Made by a program: the position numbers and the translations under genes. The notes beneath the pieces were generated by a model. That model was not told the DNA's origin. It made no database searches and saw only the letters and a program-made list of their open reading frames with translations. Positions 1,435 to 63,615 of a DNA stretch of 64,000 nucleotides are shown one piece after another. How positions within the stretch are numbered: position 1 is the first letter of the stretch; each line of letters opens with the position of its first letter. The stretch comes from an uncultured Thiothrix sp. (lineage in GTDB: Bacteria; Pseudomonadota; Gammaproteobacteria; Thiotrichales; Thiotrichaceae). The DNA is taken from contig NZ_CALMZC010000039.1 in assembly GCF_937873765.1 (NCBI RefSeq), positions 62,001-126,000 on the forward strand, in the 5' to 3' direction.

Positions 1435-2733
1435 ATGGCAACAAAACATTATCCGACCCCGATGCTGGATGTCTTGGAAGAAGGGCCTTGGCCTAGCTTC
1501 ATTAGCGGTATTAAGAATTTACGTGACAATCACCCAAACGAACGTATTCGTAACATGAATAATGGCGTGTTAGGCCAATTAGAGCATTCTTACGAAACAC
1601 GGATGGGTTATTGGAAAGGGGGTACGATTTCGGTATTCGGTTATGGAGGGGGGATTATTCCACGCTTTTCAGAAGTGGGGCATATGTTCCCTGAGTCTAA
1701 AGAATTCCATACCCTGCGTGTACAACCGCCAGCCGGTAATTACTACACCACCGATATGCTGCGCCAGCTTGCAGATAGTTGGGAAAAATACGGCTCTGGC
1801 CTGCAAACTTTTCATGGTCAAACCGGCAATATCATGTTCATTGGCTCGGATAGCAAAAACTATCAAGGCTTCTTCGATGAAATTAATGATTATGGTTGGG
1901 ACTTAGGTGGTGCGGGACCTTGTGTGCGTACTGGGATGTCTTGTGTGGGCGCTGCACGTTGCGAAATGTCTAACTGCAATGAGCAAGCAATTCATCGGCA
2001 TTTACTAAATAACTTCACCGATGATGTGCATCGTCCTGCTTTGCCGTATAAGTTTAAGTTCAAAGTATCGGGTTGCCCCAATGATTGTATGAATGCGATT
2101 GAGCGTGCCGACTTCGCCATTATTGGTACTTGGCGTGACGACATGAAAATCGACCAAGCTGCTGTGAAAGAAACGATCATGAAAAAAGCCGCTGAAATCG
2201 GCAAAGAAGGGGATCGTGCGGCAGGTCGGCAGTATATGTTCGATAATGTCATCAGTCGCTGTCCTACTGGCGCGATTAAGTTGAATGATGATGACACCAT
2301 GACCGTCGACAATAGTAATTGTGTGCGCTGCATGCACTGCTTAAATGTTATGCCAAAAGCCCTGCATACTGGTGATGATAAAGGTGTGAGCATCCTGATG
2401 GGAGGCAAGCGTACTTTAAAAATCGGTGATTTGATGGGTACGGTGATTATTCCTTTCATGAAAATGGACACCGAAGAAGATTACGAACGCATTAAAGAAT
2501 TAGCTTCTACCGTAATTGATTACTGGGCAGAAAATGGTTTAGAGCATGAGCGCTGTGGGGAAATGATTGAGCGTATCGGCTTGGTGAATTTCTTAGAAGG
2601 CATTGGCATTGATCCCGATCCAAATATGATCAAACAACCACGTAATGTGTCTTATGTGCGTATGGATGGTTGGGATGAAGCTGCAGAAGAGTGGTTCAAC
2701 CGTAAACGTGAAGAAAAAATGGCGGCTGCTTAA
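1435..2733 (+). CDS. dsrA: dissimilatory sulfite reductase alpha subunit, oxidative type
   Basis: Alpha subunit of cytoplasmic siroheme sulfite reductase. In sulfur oxidisers it runs in reverse, producing sulfite from DsrC-bound sulfane sulfur. The siroheme-[4Fe-4S] ligands appear as C170-x5-C176 and C214-x3-C218. An inserted ferredoxin domain supplies C276 and the C296/C299/C302 set (NCVRCMHC). The length of 432 aa matches the family. The start ATG has a near-perfect ribosome-binding site, GAGGAGG, five bases upstream. It is the first gene of a dsrABEFHCMKLJOP operon. The presence of dsrEFH and dsrL, markers of the oxidative pathway, assigns the direction; that is established knowledge of the family rather than something read from DsrA itself. 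Confidence 0.98.
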   Translation: MATKHYPTPMLDVLEEGPWPSFISGIKNLRDNHPNERIRNMNNGVLGQLEHSYETRMGYWKGGTISVFGYGGGIIPRFSEVGHMFPESKEFHTLRVQPPAGNYYTTDMLRQLADSWEKYGSGLQTFHGQTGNIMFIGSDSKNYQGFFDEINDYGWDLGGAGPCVRTGMSCVGAARCEMSNCNEQAIHRHLLNNFTDDVHRPALPYKFKFKVSGCPNDCMNAIERADFAIIGTWRDDMKIDQAAVKETIMKKAAEIGKEGDRAAGRQYMFDNVISRCPTGAIKLNDDDTMTVDNSNCVRCMHCLNVMPKALHTGDDKGVSILMGGKRTLKIGDLMGTVIIPFMKMDTEEDYERIKELASTVIDYWAENGLEHERCGEMIERIGLVNFLEGIGIDPDPNMIKQPRNVSYVRMDGWDEAAEEWFNRKREEKMAAA

Positions 2734-15640: not shown

Positions 15641-17512
15641 ATGCAAAAAAGATTCATCACCCGCGACTGGCTTCTCTATTCCATCCTCATAATTCTGATC
15701 GCTTTATTGTTATTAGTGATGTACCAAGTAGATCGTCAATGGACGAAATTGGCGCAGATGGAATCCGCACTCACTCAGCAAGCCCAAGATATGCGTAGCT
15801 TGCGCACGGCAGTGAGTTCTGGGCAGGTGAATCTTTCATCCGCAGTGAACTCCGCCACCCCTACTAAGCAGCTTGCAATCCCAGGCGTCGGCGCTGCCTT
15901 TCAACGTGCTTATGCGGCCAGTAAAAAGCCTGATTATGCCCAAGGTGATTGGGGGGTCAGCGCCCTCGAAACGAGTCTAAAGACCTTAACCCCTTTAGTT
16001 TCAACCGATGCTTATGCGTCTCAAGTTCAGTATTACGTGCAGGAAAGCTTAGTTAATCGCAATCCCGATACGATGGAGTGGGAGGGCTTAATCGCGAAGT
16101 CTTGGCAAATTAGCCCCGATGGCTTAACCATCACTTTCCAAATGCGTGATGATGTAACCTTCTCGGATGGCGTCAAGCTTACGGCTAAAGATGTGGTCTT
16201 CACCTATAACTTCGTTATGAATGAAGCAATTGCAGCACCAGCAGAGCGTTCAGTGTATGGGCAAATTACTTCTGTGGAAGCTAAAGGCGATTATGAGGTC
16301 GTCTTTAAATTTAAAGAGCCTTATTTCCAGTCCTTCGGTTTAGCGGGTGGCTTAGCCATTATGCCGGCTCATTTTTATGAGCCCTATATGAATAAACCAC
16401 AAGAATTTAATCAGTCCAAAGGCTTATTGCTAGGGAGTGGCCCTTATCGTTTAGCTGACCCAAAAACTTGGACACCCGATCAAGGTAGTGTCGAGCTGGT
16501 TCGGAATGAACGCTATTGGGGGGATGTACAGCCTGCGTTCAATCGGATGTTGTGGAAAGTGATTCAAAATGAAAGCGCACGCTTGACCACTTACCGAAAT
16601 GGCGAAATTGATAGCTATGAAGCCAAGCCTTCTGAATACGCTAAGCTGAAAACTGATCAGCAAATCATCGATAAAAGCCAAAACTTTGAATACATGCCGC
16701 CTGTCGTGGGCTACGGCTATATTGCTTGGAATCAGCAAAAAGACGGGAAACCGACCCGCTTTGCAGATAAACGTGTGCGTCAAGCGATGACTTACCTTAC
16801 GGATATGCAACGCATTGTAAAAGATATTTATTTAGATCATGCTGAGCAGGCGATTAGCCCGTTTAATCCACGTTCTAAACAGCATGATCCTAGCTTGCAG
16901 CTTTGGGTATTTAATCTCGAAAAAGCGCAAAGTTTACTGAAAGAGGCGGGCTTTGCTGACAAAAATGGTGATGGCATTTTAGAGGATCAGGCAGGCCAGC
17001 CGTTTGAGTTTAAGATGGTTTATTTCCAAGGGAATAAAAGTAGAGAACGCACGGTACTGTTTCTGAAAGATATTTATGCACGGGCAGGGATTAAATTAGA
17101 ACCGTCTCCGCAAGAGTTTCCAGTGATGCAGGAAGCTTTAAAGAAACGTGATTTCGATGCAATCACCATGGGCTGGTCGAGTGGAATTGAAACTGATATT
17201 TATCAAATGTTCCATAGCTCGCAAATAAAAGACGATGGTGATAATTTCATTTCTTATCACAATCCTGAGCTAGATAAGTTAATTGATGAAGCGCGCCGCA
17301 CAGTAGATGAGCCAAAACGGATGATTCTGTGGCAACAGGCTGAAAGAATTATGTATGAGGATCAGCCTTACACCTTTTTAATTCGTGAGCAGTCCTTATT
17401 GTTTGTGGATAAGCGCATTCAAAATTTACAAATGTCCAAACTGGGCTTGAACTACGGTTCTTTGCCTATGGAAAACTATGTGCCAGCCCCTTTGCAAAAG
17501 TATCAAAAATAA
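15641..17512 (+). CDS. membrane-anchored peptide ABC transporter substrate-binding protein
   Basis: A family 5 extracellular solute-binding protein (OppA/DppA/YejA type), 623 aa. The N terminus is a transmembrane segment (residues about 12-27, LLYSILIILIALLLLVMY) with no cleavage site or lipobox, followed by a coiled-coil-like stretch (about 30-50). The binding domain is therefore probably tethered to the inner membrane. SBP_bac_5 features include the region around ISPDGLTITFQMRDDVTFSDG. It is followed by two permeases and a double ATPase. The size and the fused ATPase recall YejABEF. The ligand, probably an oligopeptide or similar, is not known. Confidence 0.9.
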   Translation: MQKRFITRDWLLYSILIILIALLLLVMYQVDRQWTKLAQMESALTQQAQDMRSLRTAVSSGQVNLSSAVNSATPTKQLAIPGVGAAFQRAYAASKKPDYAQGDWGVSALETSLKTLTPLVSTDAYASQVQYYVQESLVNRNPDTMEWEGLIAKSWQISPDGLTITFQMRDDVTFSDGVKLTAKDVVFTYNFVMNEAIAAPAERSVYGQITSVEAKGDYEVVFKFKEPYFQSFGLAGGLAIMPAHFYEPYMNKPQEFNQSKGLLLGSGPYRLADPKTWTPDQGSVELVRNERYWGDVQPAFNRMLWKVIQNESARLTTYRNGEIDSYEAKPSEYAKLKTDQQIIDKSQNFEYMPPVVGYGYIAWNQQKDGKPTRFADKRVRQAMTYLTDMQRIVKDIYLDHAEQAISPFNPRSKQHDPSLQLWVFNLEKAQSLLKEAGFADKNGDGILEDQAGQPFEFKMVYFQGNKSRERTVLFLKDIYARAGIKLEPSPQEFPVMQEALKKRDFDAITMGWSSGIETDIYQMFHSSQIKDDGDNFISYHNPELDKLIDEARRTVDEPKRMILWQQAERIMYEDQPYTFLIREQSLLFVDKRIQNLQMSKLGLNYGSLPMENYVPAPLQKYQK

Positions 17513-20094: not shown

Positions 20095-21762
20095 ATGCCA
20101 GCGCCCTTATTAGTGGTCAATAAGCTCTGCACTTATCTACAAAATGGCGCTGAAACCGTTAAAGCGGTGGATGGCATCAGTTTCACTATCAATAAAGGCG
20201 AAACCTTCTGCCTAGTCGGTGAATCGGGTAGTGGTAAATCGATTACGGCTTTATCGGTGATTCGCTTACTGCCTTATGGGATTGCCTCGCATCCGAACGG
20301 GCAGCTTCTGTTTAATAATCAAGATTTGCTAAAGGTAGATGAGGATGAATTGCGGACGATTCGTGGATCACAAATTGCCATGATCTTCCAAGAGCCAATG
20401 ACTTCGCTCAATCCAGTATTCACGGTCGGTGATCAAATTATGGAGGCCTTGCAGCTCCATCATCCTGAGATGACAGCAGAAGAGGCAGAAGAACGTGCGA
20501 TTCAAGCTTTAGATCAAGTACAGATGCCCAATAGCCGCGAACGCCTGAATAGCTTTCCGCATCAGCTATCAGGTGGACAACGTCAGCGCGTGATGATTGC
20601 GATGGCTTTGGCTTGTGAGCCGGAGTTATTGATTGCAGATGAACCAACGACTGCGCTAGATGTGACCGTGCAGGCGGAAATTTTACGCTTGATGCGCCAT
20701 CTACAAGAAACTACGGGGATGAGTATGTTGTTCATTACTCATGATTTTGGGGTGGTCGCACAAATGGCGCATCAAGTCGGGGTGATGCAGCACGGTAAGT
20801 TAGTCGAAGTGGGTTTGGTCGAACAAGTGCTGAATCGTCCGCAACATCCCTATACCCATCAGTTACTCGAAGCAGTTCCCGAAAATTTGGCACGCCATAA
20901 AAATCCCACCTTAACCAAACCACTGTCTGAAGCGCAGTTAATCGCTGAACCCTTGTTACAATTGCGACATGTTAATGTTTGGTTCCCGATTAAAAAGGGC
21001 TTATTTAGGCAAGTGGTTGATTATAATAAAGCCGTTGATGATGTGAGCCTTGATATAGTCAAAGGCCAGATTGTAGCTTTAGTCGGGGAGTCGGGCTGTG
21101 GGAAAACGACTTTAGGTCGTGCGGTCTTACAATTAGAAAAGCCTAGCTCGGGTAGCATCAAAATGCAGGGCAACGAATTCGTGGGTCTGTCCGCTAGTGC
21201 AATGCGTGCTTGGCGCTCGAAAATGCAAATAGTCTTCCAAGATCCGCAATCGTCTTTGAATCCGCGCCTTTTAATTGAAATGACCTTGACCGAACCGATG
21301 AAGGTGCATGGAATCGGCTCAAATCAAGAGGAGCGTTTAGAGTTAGCGGCCAAAACTTTAGAGCGCATGCAATTAAAGCGTGAACATTTATGGCGTTATC
21401 CCCATGAATTTTCGGGTGGACAGCGCCAGCGGATTGGCTTAGCGCGTGCTTTAGTTCTGAATCCGGCGTTTATTGTTTGTGATGAAATTACGAGTGCTTT
21501 GGATGTTTCGGTGCAGGCCGAAATTTTGCAGTTACTCTTAGAGTTGCGAGCGGAGCGCGATTTAACTTTACTCTTTATTACACACAATATTGGCGTGGTT
21601 GAGTATCTCAGTGATCAAACCGTGGTAATGTATAAAGGACGGATCGTTGAATTGGGGCCAACTACAGCCGTGTGTGGTTCACCGCAGCAGGATTATACTA
21701 AAAAGCTGTTGGCGGCGGTGCCACGATTGAGTTTGGGTCAAAAGGCATGGGGCGCTTTATAA
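20095..21762 (+). CDS. fused double ATPase of peptide ABC transporter (OppD-OppF/YejF type)
   Basis: A single 555-aa protein with two complete ABC domains. The first has Walker A GESGSGKS, signature LSGGQ and Walker [13 protein letters not shown]. The second has [13 protein letters not shown] and [12 protein letters not shown]. Each is followed by the oligopeptide-transporter C-terminal motif ([32 protein letters not shown]). The fusion is known in YejF and related importers. It is the last transporter gene; its TAA overlaps the ATG of a short Fic-like ORF. Confidence 0.95.
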
Positions 21763-21966: not shown

Positions 21967-22725
21967 ATGGCCATGCAAAATCTTGTGTTAAGAAAACAAC
22001 TAGCTACTTACAGGCGAGTTGGGGTTGCTATTTCTGTGTTTAGTCTAGCAACACTTAGTTCTTTTGCTTGGAGTGAAACCCCTTATGGTGGCATGGGGAG
22101 TATGCCGTGGTCTTCCGGCTTGTCACCTTGGAGTATGGGGGCGAACCCGTGGTCTTCCGGCTTGTCACCTTGGAGTATGGGCAGCAATCCTTGGTCGACT
22201 GGCTTTATGCCTTGGGGTGGAAATAGTTGGAGTTCGTCAATGATGCCGTGGAGTTCTGGCAACGGCGGGGGGAACTCATGGGGAAATAACGCATGGATGC
22301 CGTGGTCTAGTGGTTCTAACTCCTTTGGGCGACGCAATAATAATGATTGGGTAACGAGTATGTTTTTAATGAACTCACTCAATAACCAACAACCTTGGAA
22401 TACAGGCATACTTCCAAATTATAATTATCAAGCCCCGAGTTGGCAGCAGGTACCTCTGCAAACACCGCCTAGTGCTTTCTACCAATCGCCGCCAGTTATG
22501 CTGCCCAATAATTTCATGCCCAACCCTGATACAGGTCAAGCCGTCCAGCCTGCAGAATCCATTAGGTTTCCTGCGAGTAGCTCGAGCTTTAGCCCTTTCT
22601 TAGACTCTAATCCGCCAACTACTAATCAATCACCAGTGGCTAACTCTGTTCAATCTCAACCGAGTACGCCTCAACCTAATCCTACTGGCAAAACCTTAGT
22701 ATTTCCGGACGGTAGTCGCTTTTAG
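21967..22725 (+). CDS. secreted Trp/Ser/Gly/Pro-rich repeat protein
   Basis: A 252-aa exported protein. The N terminus is basic (LRKQLATYRR) and is followed by a hydrophobic stretch with likely cleavage after AWS (about residue 36). The mature part has tandem 14-residue units of the form NPWSSGLSPWSMGS (about residues 46-75), then looser PWxxG, NSW and PWSSG units to about 115. A Pro/Gln/Asn-rich, low-complexity tail follows. It has no cysteine and no enzyme motif. The composition recalls the Gly/Asn/aromatic repeat proteins that coat sulfur globules, but this is not established. It stands between the ABC transporter and ftsX, where many gammaproteobacteria carry rpoH. Confidence 0.75.
   Translation: MAMQNLVLRKQLATYRRVGVAISVFSLATLSSFAWSETPYGGMGSMPWSSGLSPWSMGANPWSSGLSPWSMGSNPWSTGFMPWGGNSWSSSMMPWSSGNGGGNSWGNNAWMPWSSGSNSFGRRNNNDWVTSMFLMNSLNNQQPWNTGILPNYNYQAPSWQQVPLQTPPSAFYQSPPVMLPNNFMPNPDTGQAVQPAESIRFPASSSSFSPFLDSNPPTTNQSPVANSVQSQPSTPQPNPTGKTLVFPDGSRF
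22105..22181 (+). repeat. 42-bp tandem repeat inside the secreted repeat protein gene
   Basis: A 35-base stretch at 22105-22139 recurs identically at 22147-22181, a period of 42 bases (14 codons). Exact identity at the DNA level points to recent duplication and possible copy-number change. Confidence 0.9.
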
Positions 22726-23711
22726 TCGTTAATTACTTCGCTTTCCCACAGATAGCGATTGACGGCTAACCATGCCCCGACTAAACCTAAACTAGCACTG
22801 ATGATTAAGACTTCCAAAGTAGTAGTCAGATCAATGCCGCCTAAATTGAAATCACTGCCATAAAGCAGAGATAGTTTATTGACAGGCTCGACCAGAAATA
22901 ATAGGGCGATATTCACGACTAATAAGCTTAAGAAGCCGCCAAACAAGCCTAACCACAAACCACCATATAAAAAGGGGCGACGAATATAACGATTAGTCGC
23001 GCCGATTAAACGGGTGACACGAATTTCATCTTTGCGATTTTCAATATCCAGTCGAATCGTATTGCCAACCACTAAGAGGACAGTGGTGGCTAGGAGTGCT
23101 GCCACCACCGCAACAATACGCTCAGCGATTTGCAGGATGGCGCGTAGGCGTTGAATCCATTCAATATCGATTTGCACATCTTCAACTTCTTTGTAGGTTT
23201 TTAAGCGCTTGGTGAAGTCTTCCAAATCAGCATCAGTGACCCCTAAATCATTCATTTTAGGGGTAATCACCACAATATTGGGTAAGGGATTTTCACCTAA
23301 GGTTTTTAAAGTATCCGCAAGACCCGCAATTTTCTTAAAATCTTGCAAGGCCTGATCGCGGGTAACCACCGTAGTACTCAACACTTCAGGCTGACTTTTG
23401 ACCAGTTCTGCCAAATCATTTGCTTGTTGCTCAGTCACTTTCGGCTTTAAAAACAAAGAAATAGTTGGTACAGATTGATTGTTATGCGTCAAACTTTGTA
23501 GATTTTTAACTAAAACATGCATGCTCGTCGGTAAAGATAAGGCCAAAGCAATCGCAATCAAGGTAATCCAAGCAGAAATCGGGTTAAACCATAAGCGCTT
23601 GAGGCTGAAATCAATCGCTTGTTTTTGCTGACTCAACCAAACCCTAAATTTGCGCCCTAAGTCATGGGAAGCTACAATGCGCGGTTTAGCCGGTGGTCTT
23701 TTGTCGGTCAT
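22722..23711 (-). CDS. ftsX: cell division protein FtsX
   Basis: The membrane half of the FtsEX complex, which governs periplasmic amidase activation during septation. It has 329 aa, a long cytoplasmic N terminus, one membrane segment, a periplasmic domain (about residues 75-205) and three C-terminal helices, the permease-like FtsX arrangement. The start abuts the ftsE stop with no gap, so translation is coupled. Its stop overlaps the stop of the convergent repeat-protein gene. Confidence 0.96.
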   Translation of the reverse strand: MTDKRPPAKPRIVASHDLGRKFRVWLSQQKQAIDFSLKRLWFNPISAWITLIAIALALSLPTSMHVLVKNLQSLTHNNQSVPTISLFLKPKVTEQQANDLAELVKSQPEVLSTTVVTRDQALQDFKKIAGLADTLKTLGENPLPNIVVITPKMNDLGVTDADLEDFTKRLKTYKEVEDVQIDIEWIQRLRAILQIAERIVAVVAALLATTVLLVVGNTIRLDIENRKDEIRVTRLIGATNRYIRRPFLYGGLWLGLFGGFLSLLVVNIALLFLVEPVNKLSLLYGSDFNLGGIDLTTTLEVLIISASLGLVGAWLAVNRYLWESEVIND

Positions 23712-62407: not shown

Positions 62408-63615
62408 TGGCTGTCAATTTAAGCTTTAATGAGGATTTATTGCCCATTGCGGGTGTGCGCTTAGCGACTTTGAATGCAGGCATTCGTTATAAAGGGCGTG
62501 ATGATCTGTTAGTGATGGAGCTGGCCGAAGGCAGTTCTTGTGCTGCGGTCTTCACGCGTAATGCTTTCTGTGCAGCTCCAGTGACGGTTGCTCGTGCACA
62601 TTTAGCAAGTGCTAGCCCACGGTATCTGCTAGTGAATGCAGGCAATGCGAATGCAGGCACAGGTGAACTCGGTCTTGCTGCAGCTAAAGCTTGTTGTAAT
62701 GCTTTGGCAGAAGTAGGGCAGTGTAAGCCAGAGCAAATTTTGCCATTTTCTACGGGTGTGATTGGCCAACAGTTGCCCGTCGATAAAGTTGTCGCTGCTT
62801 TACCTGCGGCGATGGCTAATCTTAAAGAGGATAATTGGTTAGCTGCAGCAAAAGCCATTATGACCACCGACACTATCGGTAAGGCCATGAGCAAGCAAAT
62901 TGAACTGGGCGGCAAGTCAGTGACCATCACAGGCATCGCTAAAGGTGCGGGGATGATTCACCCGAATATGGCTACTATGTTGTCTTATGTAGCCACCGAT
63001 GCTCAGGTTGAACCGAGTTTATTACAAGCCATTTTAAGTGAAGTGGTTGAAGAAACCTATAACTGCATCACGATTGATGGTGATACTTCAACCAATGATT
63101 CTCTGGTGTTAGCAGCTACTGGAAAATCAGGTTCAGTGGTGGATGCGAGTAATCGTGCTAGCTTCCAGCAAGCGGTGCAGGATGTTTGTATGTATCTTGC
63201 GCAAGCGATTGTGCGTGATGGTGAAGGTGCTACCAAATTCATTAGTGTGGTGGTGGAGGGTGCTAACGATCGTGCAGAAGCGCGTGTGATTGGGAATACG
63301 GTCGCTTTATCACCTTTAGTGAAAACCGCGATGTTTGCCAGTGACCCTAACTGGGGACGGATTTTAGCAGCAGTTGGGCGTAGTCCAATTGATAAGCTAG
63401 ATGTGAATGCAGTCACGATTTGGTTGGGAGATACTTTACTGATTGAGAAGGGGCAGCCAGCTCCCTCTTATCGTGAAGAATTAGGCCAAGTGGAAATGAA
63501 GCGTGATGAAATCAATGTTCGCATTCAGATGGGAAGAGGGGCGGCGAGTGCAACCACTTGGACTTGTGACTTCTCTTATGATTACGTCAAAATTAATGCT
63601 GAATACCGTAGCTGA
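62407..63615 (+). CDS. argJ: bifunctional ornithine acetyltransferase/N-acetylglutamate synthase ArgJ
   Basis: An arginine biosynthesis enzyme of 402 aa that cleaves itself into two subunits. The cleavage motif is KGAGMIHPNMATML, with nucleophile Thr190. ATG 62407 overlaps the secA stop; an earlier frame into secA is rejected. Whether it is bifunctional or only transfers acetyl from acetylornithine cannot be told. The stop overlaps the mutT start (TGATG). Confidence 0.96.
   Translation: MAVNLSFNEDLLPIAGVRLATLNAGIRYKGRDDLLVMELAEGSSCAAVFTRNAFCAAPVTVARAHLASASPRYLLVNAGNANAGTGELGLAAAKACCNALAEVGQCKPEQILPFSTGVIGQQLPVDKVVAALPAAMANLKEDNWLAAAKAIMTTDTIGKAMSKQIELGGKSVTITGIAKGAGMIHPNMATMLSYVATDAQVEPSLLQAILSEVVEETYNCITIDGDTSTNDSLVLAATGKSGSVVDASNRASFQQAVQDVCMYLAQAIVRDGEGATKFISVVVEGANDRAEARVIGNTVALSPLVKTAMFASDPNWGRILAAVGRSPIDKLDVNAVTIWLGDTLLIEKGQPAPSYREELGQVEMKRDEINVRIQMGRGAASATTWTCDFSYDYVKINAEYRS

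Follow-up and report, generated by a model that had tools for sequence, protein, structure and literature searches.

The window, meaning the whole stretch of 64,000 nucleotides analyzed here, encodes a predicted exported Pro-Trp (PW) repeat protein, whose gene, repeats, lack of cysteine, conservation pattern and genomic distribution are documented in the following. The leading reading of this protein is a coat or accessory role at the sulfur globule, at a probability of roughly 0.45. The features referred to throughout are:

20095..21762 (+): upstream neighbor, Opp-type ATPase of 555 aa with two ABC modules (recognized by the ABC motifs in its sequence)
21967..22725 (+): CDS of the predicted exported Pro-Trp repeat protein, 252 aa (ORF list; ATG start, stop codon included; purifying selection against the G005 ortholog)
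21967..22074 (+): signal-peptide-like N-terminus, residues 1–36 (sequence; AlphaFold2 helix 2–28; orthologs start alike; the cleavage site is a by-eye guess)
22105..22230 (+): Pro-Trp heptads, PW at residues 47, 54, 61, 68, 75, and 82 (spacings; shuffles; PW-heptad DNA pattern at 22105–22215)
22105..22188 (+): two direct copies of 42 bp, 37/42 identical (TRF and repeat search)
22318..22392 (+): conserved core, residues about 118–142 (GRRNNNDWVTSMFLMNSLNNQQP), with a predicted helix at 127–139 (alignments A1 and A2; AlphaFold2)
22681..22722 (+): conserved C-terminal tail, last 14 residues, ...VFPDGSRF (alignments; pN/pS 0.20; pLDDT about 74 over the last 12 residues)
22722..23711 (−): convergent neighbor ftsX, whose end overlaps that of the gene by 4 bp (relatives; named from the sequence and from ftsE/ftsY-like neighbors)

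The Repeat Gene and Its Product

The open reading frame singled out in an earlier note on this DNA is a real gene. Its pN/pS is 0.44 over 208 codons against the nearest ortholog (G005), a pair in which synonymous sites are near saturation, with values of 0.34 in residues 105–145 and 0.20 in the last 14 residues. Since ftsX, serving as a yardstick, has a pN/pS of 0.11, the gene is, judging by its substitutions, constrained and fast-changing. The same note was right that the protein lacks cysteine, which is absent from all family sequences (10 of 10, from nine genomes), and in recognizing no known family, as the window protein has zero Pfam or NCBIfam matches at E-values up to 1. Searching the same collections with six relatives returned only two sub-threshold Pfam matches of no bearing.

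By eye, the N-terminus consists of a basic n-region followed by a hydrophobic stretch reaching to about residue 33. The heptads are followed by a Gly/Asn/Trp stretch, the short core, a Pro/Ser/Gln-rich tail and the VFPDGSRF end, and the overall composition includes 17.5% Ser, 12.3% Pro, 9.9% Asn, 8.7% Gly, and 6.0% Trp. The mature protein is predicted to have a mass of 23.4 kDa and a GRAVY of −0.69, a value which is crude here because the Kyte-Doolittle scale scores Trp and Pro as hydrophilic. AlphaFold2 (six sequences) returned a mean pLDDT of 47.7 and a pTM of 0.16, with helices only at residues 2–28 (the signal) and 127–139 (a short helix); the rest of the protein is thus predicted to be disordered. 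No promoter- or terminator-like sites were found around the ends of the gene on its own strand, and a scan of the window for ORFs of at least 80 aa revealed no second one with the composition of the repeat protein. An antisense ORF of 108 aa at 22083–22409 (−) was rejected as a gene and is regarded as a shadow or by-product of the repeat.

The tandem repeats noticed earlier are borne out, whereas the basic unit of 14 residues proposed for them is not: with a PW at every seventh residue of the host array, the 14-residue unit was dropped for a heptad and corresponds to two heptads. In fact, the Pro-Trp/Phe spacings read 7, 7, 7, 7, 7, 12, and 18 and are irregular thereafter, with PW occurring six times running at a spacing of 7. 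Within residues 39–118, a lag of 7 gives 23 self-matches and a lag of 14 gives 26. Only 3 of 50,000 residue shuffles attained this higher count anywhere among lags 5 to 20, and a separate run of 20,000 shuffles had its 95% point at 19 and peaked at 28 (observed 26); the periodicity of this region exceeds chance. At the DNA level, TRF detected a single array within the ORF (22105–22196, period 42, 2.2 copies). The copies at 22105–22146 and 22147–22188 agree in 37 of 42 bases with an exact run of 35, and a third 42-bp copy at 22177–22218 is 69% alike. The phase of the repeat differs between species, being 7 in the host, 14 in G005 and 11 in G007, and irregular in G001, G004, and G008. In G005, the gene is split inside the repeat between two contigs whose ends overlap by 22 exact bases, and no repeat number can therefore be read for this genome.

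Relatives and Genomic Neighborhood

A single-sequence search of 57 relatives matched only the host and G005. The gene is nevertheless no orphan, as synteny and profile searches gave relatives beyond G005. Family members were located by position, using ftsX of the same genomes, reading the DNA downstream of it and then taking the Opp-type gene as the starting point. Among 63 genomes of the host family, profile A2 identified six of the nine genomes of the host's genus, g1 (the host G000, G001, G004, G005, G007, and G008) at E-values of 6e-41 or better and gave no credible match in the remaining genomes. Across 369 genomes of the class, it matched only G000 and G007. Two weak profile matches were discarded, one being a Gln/Ser/Thr-rich tail preceding a hisS-like gene (G035, L039) and the other an out-of-frame stretch within a 529-aa ORF (G076, L063). 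No relatives were found in the plasmids and the PDB.

The alignable relatives of genus g1 lie on the 3′ side of the Opp-type ABC transporter gene and/or against ftsX. The repeat gene directly follows the Opp-type gene in G000, G004, G005, G011, G022, G028, and G077, and is separated from it by one gene in G001 and G007; in the host and G005 it overlaps ftsX convergently. Position and composition also identify diverged members in G011 of genus g4 (BLASTP 5e-9 against the window protein) and in G022, G028, and G077 of genus g2, to which G078 is added by profile only.

The proteins of genus g2, termed the SPF type, were detected with profile A3 in 4 of 17 genomes, the count being limited to G022, G028, G077, and G078. 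Profile matches in G083, G073, G016, and G079 were rejected, being confined to the first ~50 positions, outside the protein, and weak matches in G000, G007, G032, and G065 (E 0.007 to 0.94) were not counted either. Like the host protein, the SPF type has a signal-like N-terminus and Pro-aromatic dipeptides, lies 3′ of the Opp-type gene (G022, G028, and G077) and is devoid of cysteine in G022 and G028. In contrast to the host protein, it carries Phe or Tyr in place of most Trp, has neither the core helix nor the VFPDGS tail, and is 15.6–15.7 kDa in size with a GRAVY of about +0.1. The BLASTP value of 3e-6 between the SPF type and the window protein is a single comparison of low-complexity sequence.

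Several further genes were noted in these neighborhoods. In G001 (L037:820–1341) and G008 (L014 beyond 3554), the PW gene adjoins a gene for a small exported protein in which VPAGAL...GWGGKEI-type domains are repeated. In G009 (L011), G016 (L007), and G033 (L010) of genus g2, ftsX and the Opp-type gene are separated not by the repeat gene but by a conserved ORF of ~80 aa with two Cys pairs (CPxC and CQDC). Within the window, an Opp-type substrate-binding protein is encoded at 15641–17512, the N-terminus of which resembles, by eye, a membrane anchor with a coiled-coil-like segment after it.

PW-Heptad Proteins Elsewhere in the Class

A DNA pattern of four PW heptads was matched in 10 of 369 class genomes. 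Reading of the ORFs revealed exported-looking PW proteins in four of these (G000, G159, G212, and G418); the other six (G142, G145, G171, G216, G293, and G327) were set aside, by eye, as a 7-bp microsatellite or as other-frame readings of repeats rich in Gly or Gln. G159 (family f98) has PWSGNSM units, while G212, which carries two PW-heptad genes, and G418 belong to one family, f151, and share PWSGYGG units. The PW gene of G418 (L101:14073–14531) shares a 20-kb stretch with a sulfide:quinone reductase gene some 9 kb away, whose 457-aa product matches PDB 3t31 and its relatives at E 2e-187. As 3t31 is the enzyme of Acidithiobacillus ferrooxidans, we infer that family f151 lies near Acidithiobacillus.

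The gene order on L101 is sulfide:quinone reductase, sigma-54 regulator, RND adaptor, pump, Pro-rich exported protein, PW protein, TPR protein, and dynamin-like GTPase. The stretch L101:3636–19307 is a candidate sulfur-handling locus, and its PW gene and the genes following it have counterparts on L100 of G212, where two PW-heptad genes stand in tandem with a Tyr/Pro-rich exported gene near the contig end (L100:12031–13804).

The search for PW repeats in other bacteria suggested in the earlier note has thus produced exported-looking proteins, one of them near a sulfide:quinone reductase gene, but not common ancestry: because the repeats are of low complexity, pairwise BLASTP values of about 1e-6 between the distant PW proteins and the window protein are no proof of descent. 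Convergence of low-complexity sequence may explain this likeness just as well as a shared ancestor.

Co-Occurrence With Sulfur Genes

The earlier note credits the host with the pathway that consumes stored sulfur, and a dsr gene cluster lies upstream in the same window. dsrA lies at 1435–2730 of the window (over-cut-off match at contig positions 63465–64712, i.e., window 1465–2712), and the remaining ORFs of the cluster, identified by eye, extend to about 12323; the cluster therefore ends about 9.6 kb ahead of the repeat gene. The host genome (4.0 Mb) has dsrA and soxB over the cut-off but not soxC, sulfur storage being a candidate trait.

Among the near-complete genomes of genus g1 (at least 96% complete), the repeat gene and dsrA agree in six of six: G000, G004, G005, and G007 carry the two together, and G002 and G006 have neither. 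In G004 and G007, the two genes reside on separate contigs. The three less complete genomes do not decide the matter, with neither gene in G003 (67% complete), the repeat gene and only a weak dsr fragment in G001 (81%), and the repeat gene without a dsrA match in G008 (74%). G002 has kept soxB while lacking both dsrA and the repeat gene; soxC was rejected as the cause, as no genome of the genus has it over the cut-off. The region appears rearranged in G002, since ftsX and the Opp-type gene are found on different contigs (L016 and L044) with other neighbors. The FtsX tree joins G002 to G003 and G008 (97/94) and places G006 elsewhere; its support for genus g1 itself is weak (54/40). The Opp-type tree likewise separates G002 (with G001) from G006 (with G007). 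If the FtsX tree is right, the co-absence therefore arose at least twice.

Across the 57 genomes, dsrA is over the cut-off in 30, including G011, G022, and G028 with their diverged members, and a recognizable member of the family occurs in only seven of the 30 (G000, G004, G005, G007, G011, G022, and G028). As most dsrA-positive genomes of the family lack such a member, the protein is not a universal globule protein. The proposal of a sulfur-globule or envelope protein is partly supported, by the signal-like N-terminus, the lack of cysteine, the regular prolines and aromatic repeat, the dsr cluster, the agreement between gene and dsrA in near-complete genomes of genus g1 and the sulfide:quinone reductase gene near a similar PW-heptad gene in G418.

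Alternative Readings and Proposed Role

Next to the globule role, the protein could, after export, be a structural element of the cell surface or of the filament, in the sheath, the septum or a holdfast matrix, and have no particular connection with sulfur; its link to dsrA would then reflect shared ancestry and the lifestyle of filamentous genera. Envelopes commonly contain exported aromatic proteins of low complexity. The convergent overlap with ftsX would suit such a protein, as would the carrier genera, which, to judge by PMC10532065, appear to be Thiothrix, Thiolinea, and Thiofilum, whose filaments form rosettes. However, the gene is missing from G002 and G006 of the same genus, and the PW-heptad proteins of G212 and G418 occur in a different family, one of them near a sulfide:quinone reductase gene; the surface reading is somewhat unlikely.

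Improbable, too, is a lineage-specific exported disordered protein of other function, such as metal, polyphosphate or cell-wall binding, whose association with dsrA in six genomes would be due to chance. Four joint presences and two joint absences have an exact probability of 1 in 15, the independent co-absences number only two, and most dsrA-positive relatives lack the gene; against chance speak the position kept in three genera and the purifying selection on core and tail. A propeptide, cut after export into short Pro-Trp peptides which the Opp-type transporter would re-import as signal or recycling substrate, would account for the Opp-type ATPase being the most constant neighbor but is very improbable, given that neither Lys/Arg nor another evident processing site separates the repeats of the window protein, that repeat sequence and phase vary from species to species, and that G002, G006, and G009 keep the transporter without a repeat protein alongside.

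For the favored globule role, we envisage that a filamentous bacterium that stores sulfur makes, and presumably exports, an intrinsically disordered “sticker and spacer” protein, in which Pro-Trp stickers at fixed spacing would alternate with Ser/Gly/Met/Asn spacers. Many copies would assemble as a flexible film covering a hydrophobic periplasmic surface, most likely that of the stored sulfur globule, with the short helix of the core and the VFPDGS tail acting as fixed contact points while repeat number and phase drift. A bolder and rather unlikely extension is that exported Pro-aromatic heptad proteins constitute an undescribed kind of sulfur-associated coat protein, whose origin or spread would involve at least two lineages of sulfur oxidizers (Thiotrichaceae and the family with the adjoining sulfide:quinone reductase); here, Pro-Trp/Phe stickers at fixed spacing would bind elemental sulfur, and changes in repeat number by recombination would tune globule size. 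The wettable, reusable storage of elemental sulfur is poorly known outside purple sulfur bacteria, and the fixed genomic position and known repeat period of this gene make the globule question testable. Should the protein bind sulfur, it would provide a simple template for designed sulfur-coating peptides.

Comparison With Known Globule Proteins

Sulfur inclusions are reported for Thiolinea (PMC10532065). The portions of the literature searched (including PMC9455678, PMC10532065, and PMC11355018) name no globule protein for Thiothrix, Thiolinea or Thiofilum, and titles and abstract openings mention no PW-repeat globule protein. A published primer for the Beggiatoa globule gene, used as an exact pattern, gave no match in the genome contigs.

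In Beggiatoa leptomitoformis, the globule protein ALG67575.1 is described in PMC7356093 as a 15-kDa exported protein with regularly spaced prolines and no conserved domain. Its gene is expressed 10-fold higher with thiosulfate, and a transposon in this gene accompanies the loss of stored sulfur in strain D-401 (PMC7356093). By description, the host protein resembles it in predicted export, in its regularly spaced prolines and in having no conserved domain, and differs in its larger predicted mature mass (23.4 kDa).

The sulfur globule envelope proteins SgpA, SgpB, SgpC, and SgpD of Allochromatium vinosum are, according to PMC10386293, likewise exported and repetitive with regularly spaced prolines, a trait found in the host protein as PW every 7 residues. 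The same paper reports for SgpD an AlphaFold model of mostly low-confidence loops and two helices, so that SgpD and the host protein have an unstructured prediction in common. It also places sgpD next to an exporter and a regulator (PMC10386293), a setting similar to that of the PW gene in G418. SgpA–C are described there as small and “extremely hydrophobic” (PMC10386293), and the very hydrophobic character and small size (about 10–15 kDa) of the Sgp class are not found in the host protein, which is larger and more hydrophilic. Compared by description only, the proline pattern differs as well, being P-x2-P in the Sgp proteins and P-x6-P with Trp after each Pro in the host protein. The latter is therefore set apart from SgpA–D as described and not filed as an Sgp, and the SPF-type proteins of genus g2 are closer to the described Sgp class than the host protein is.
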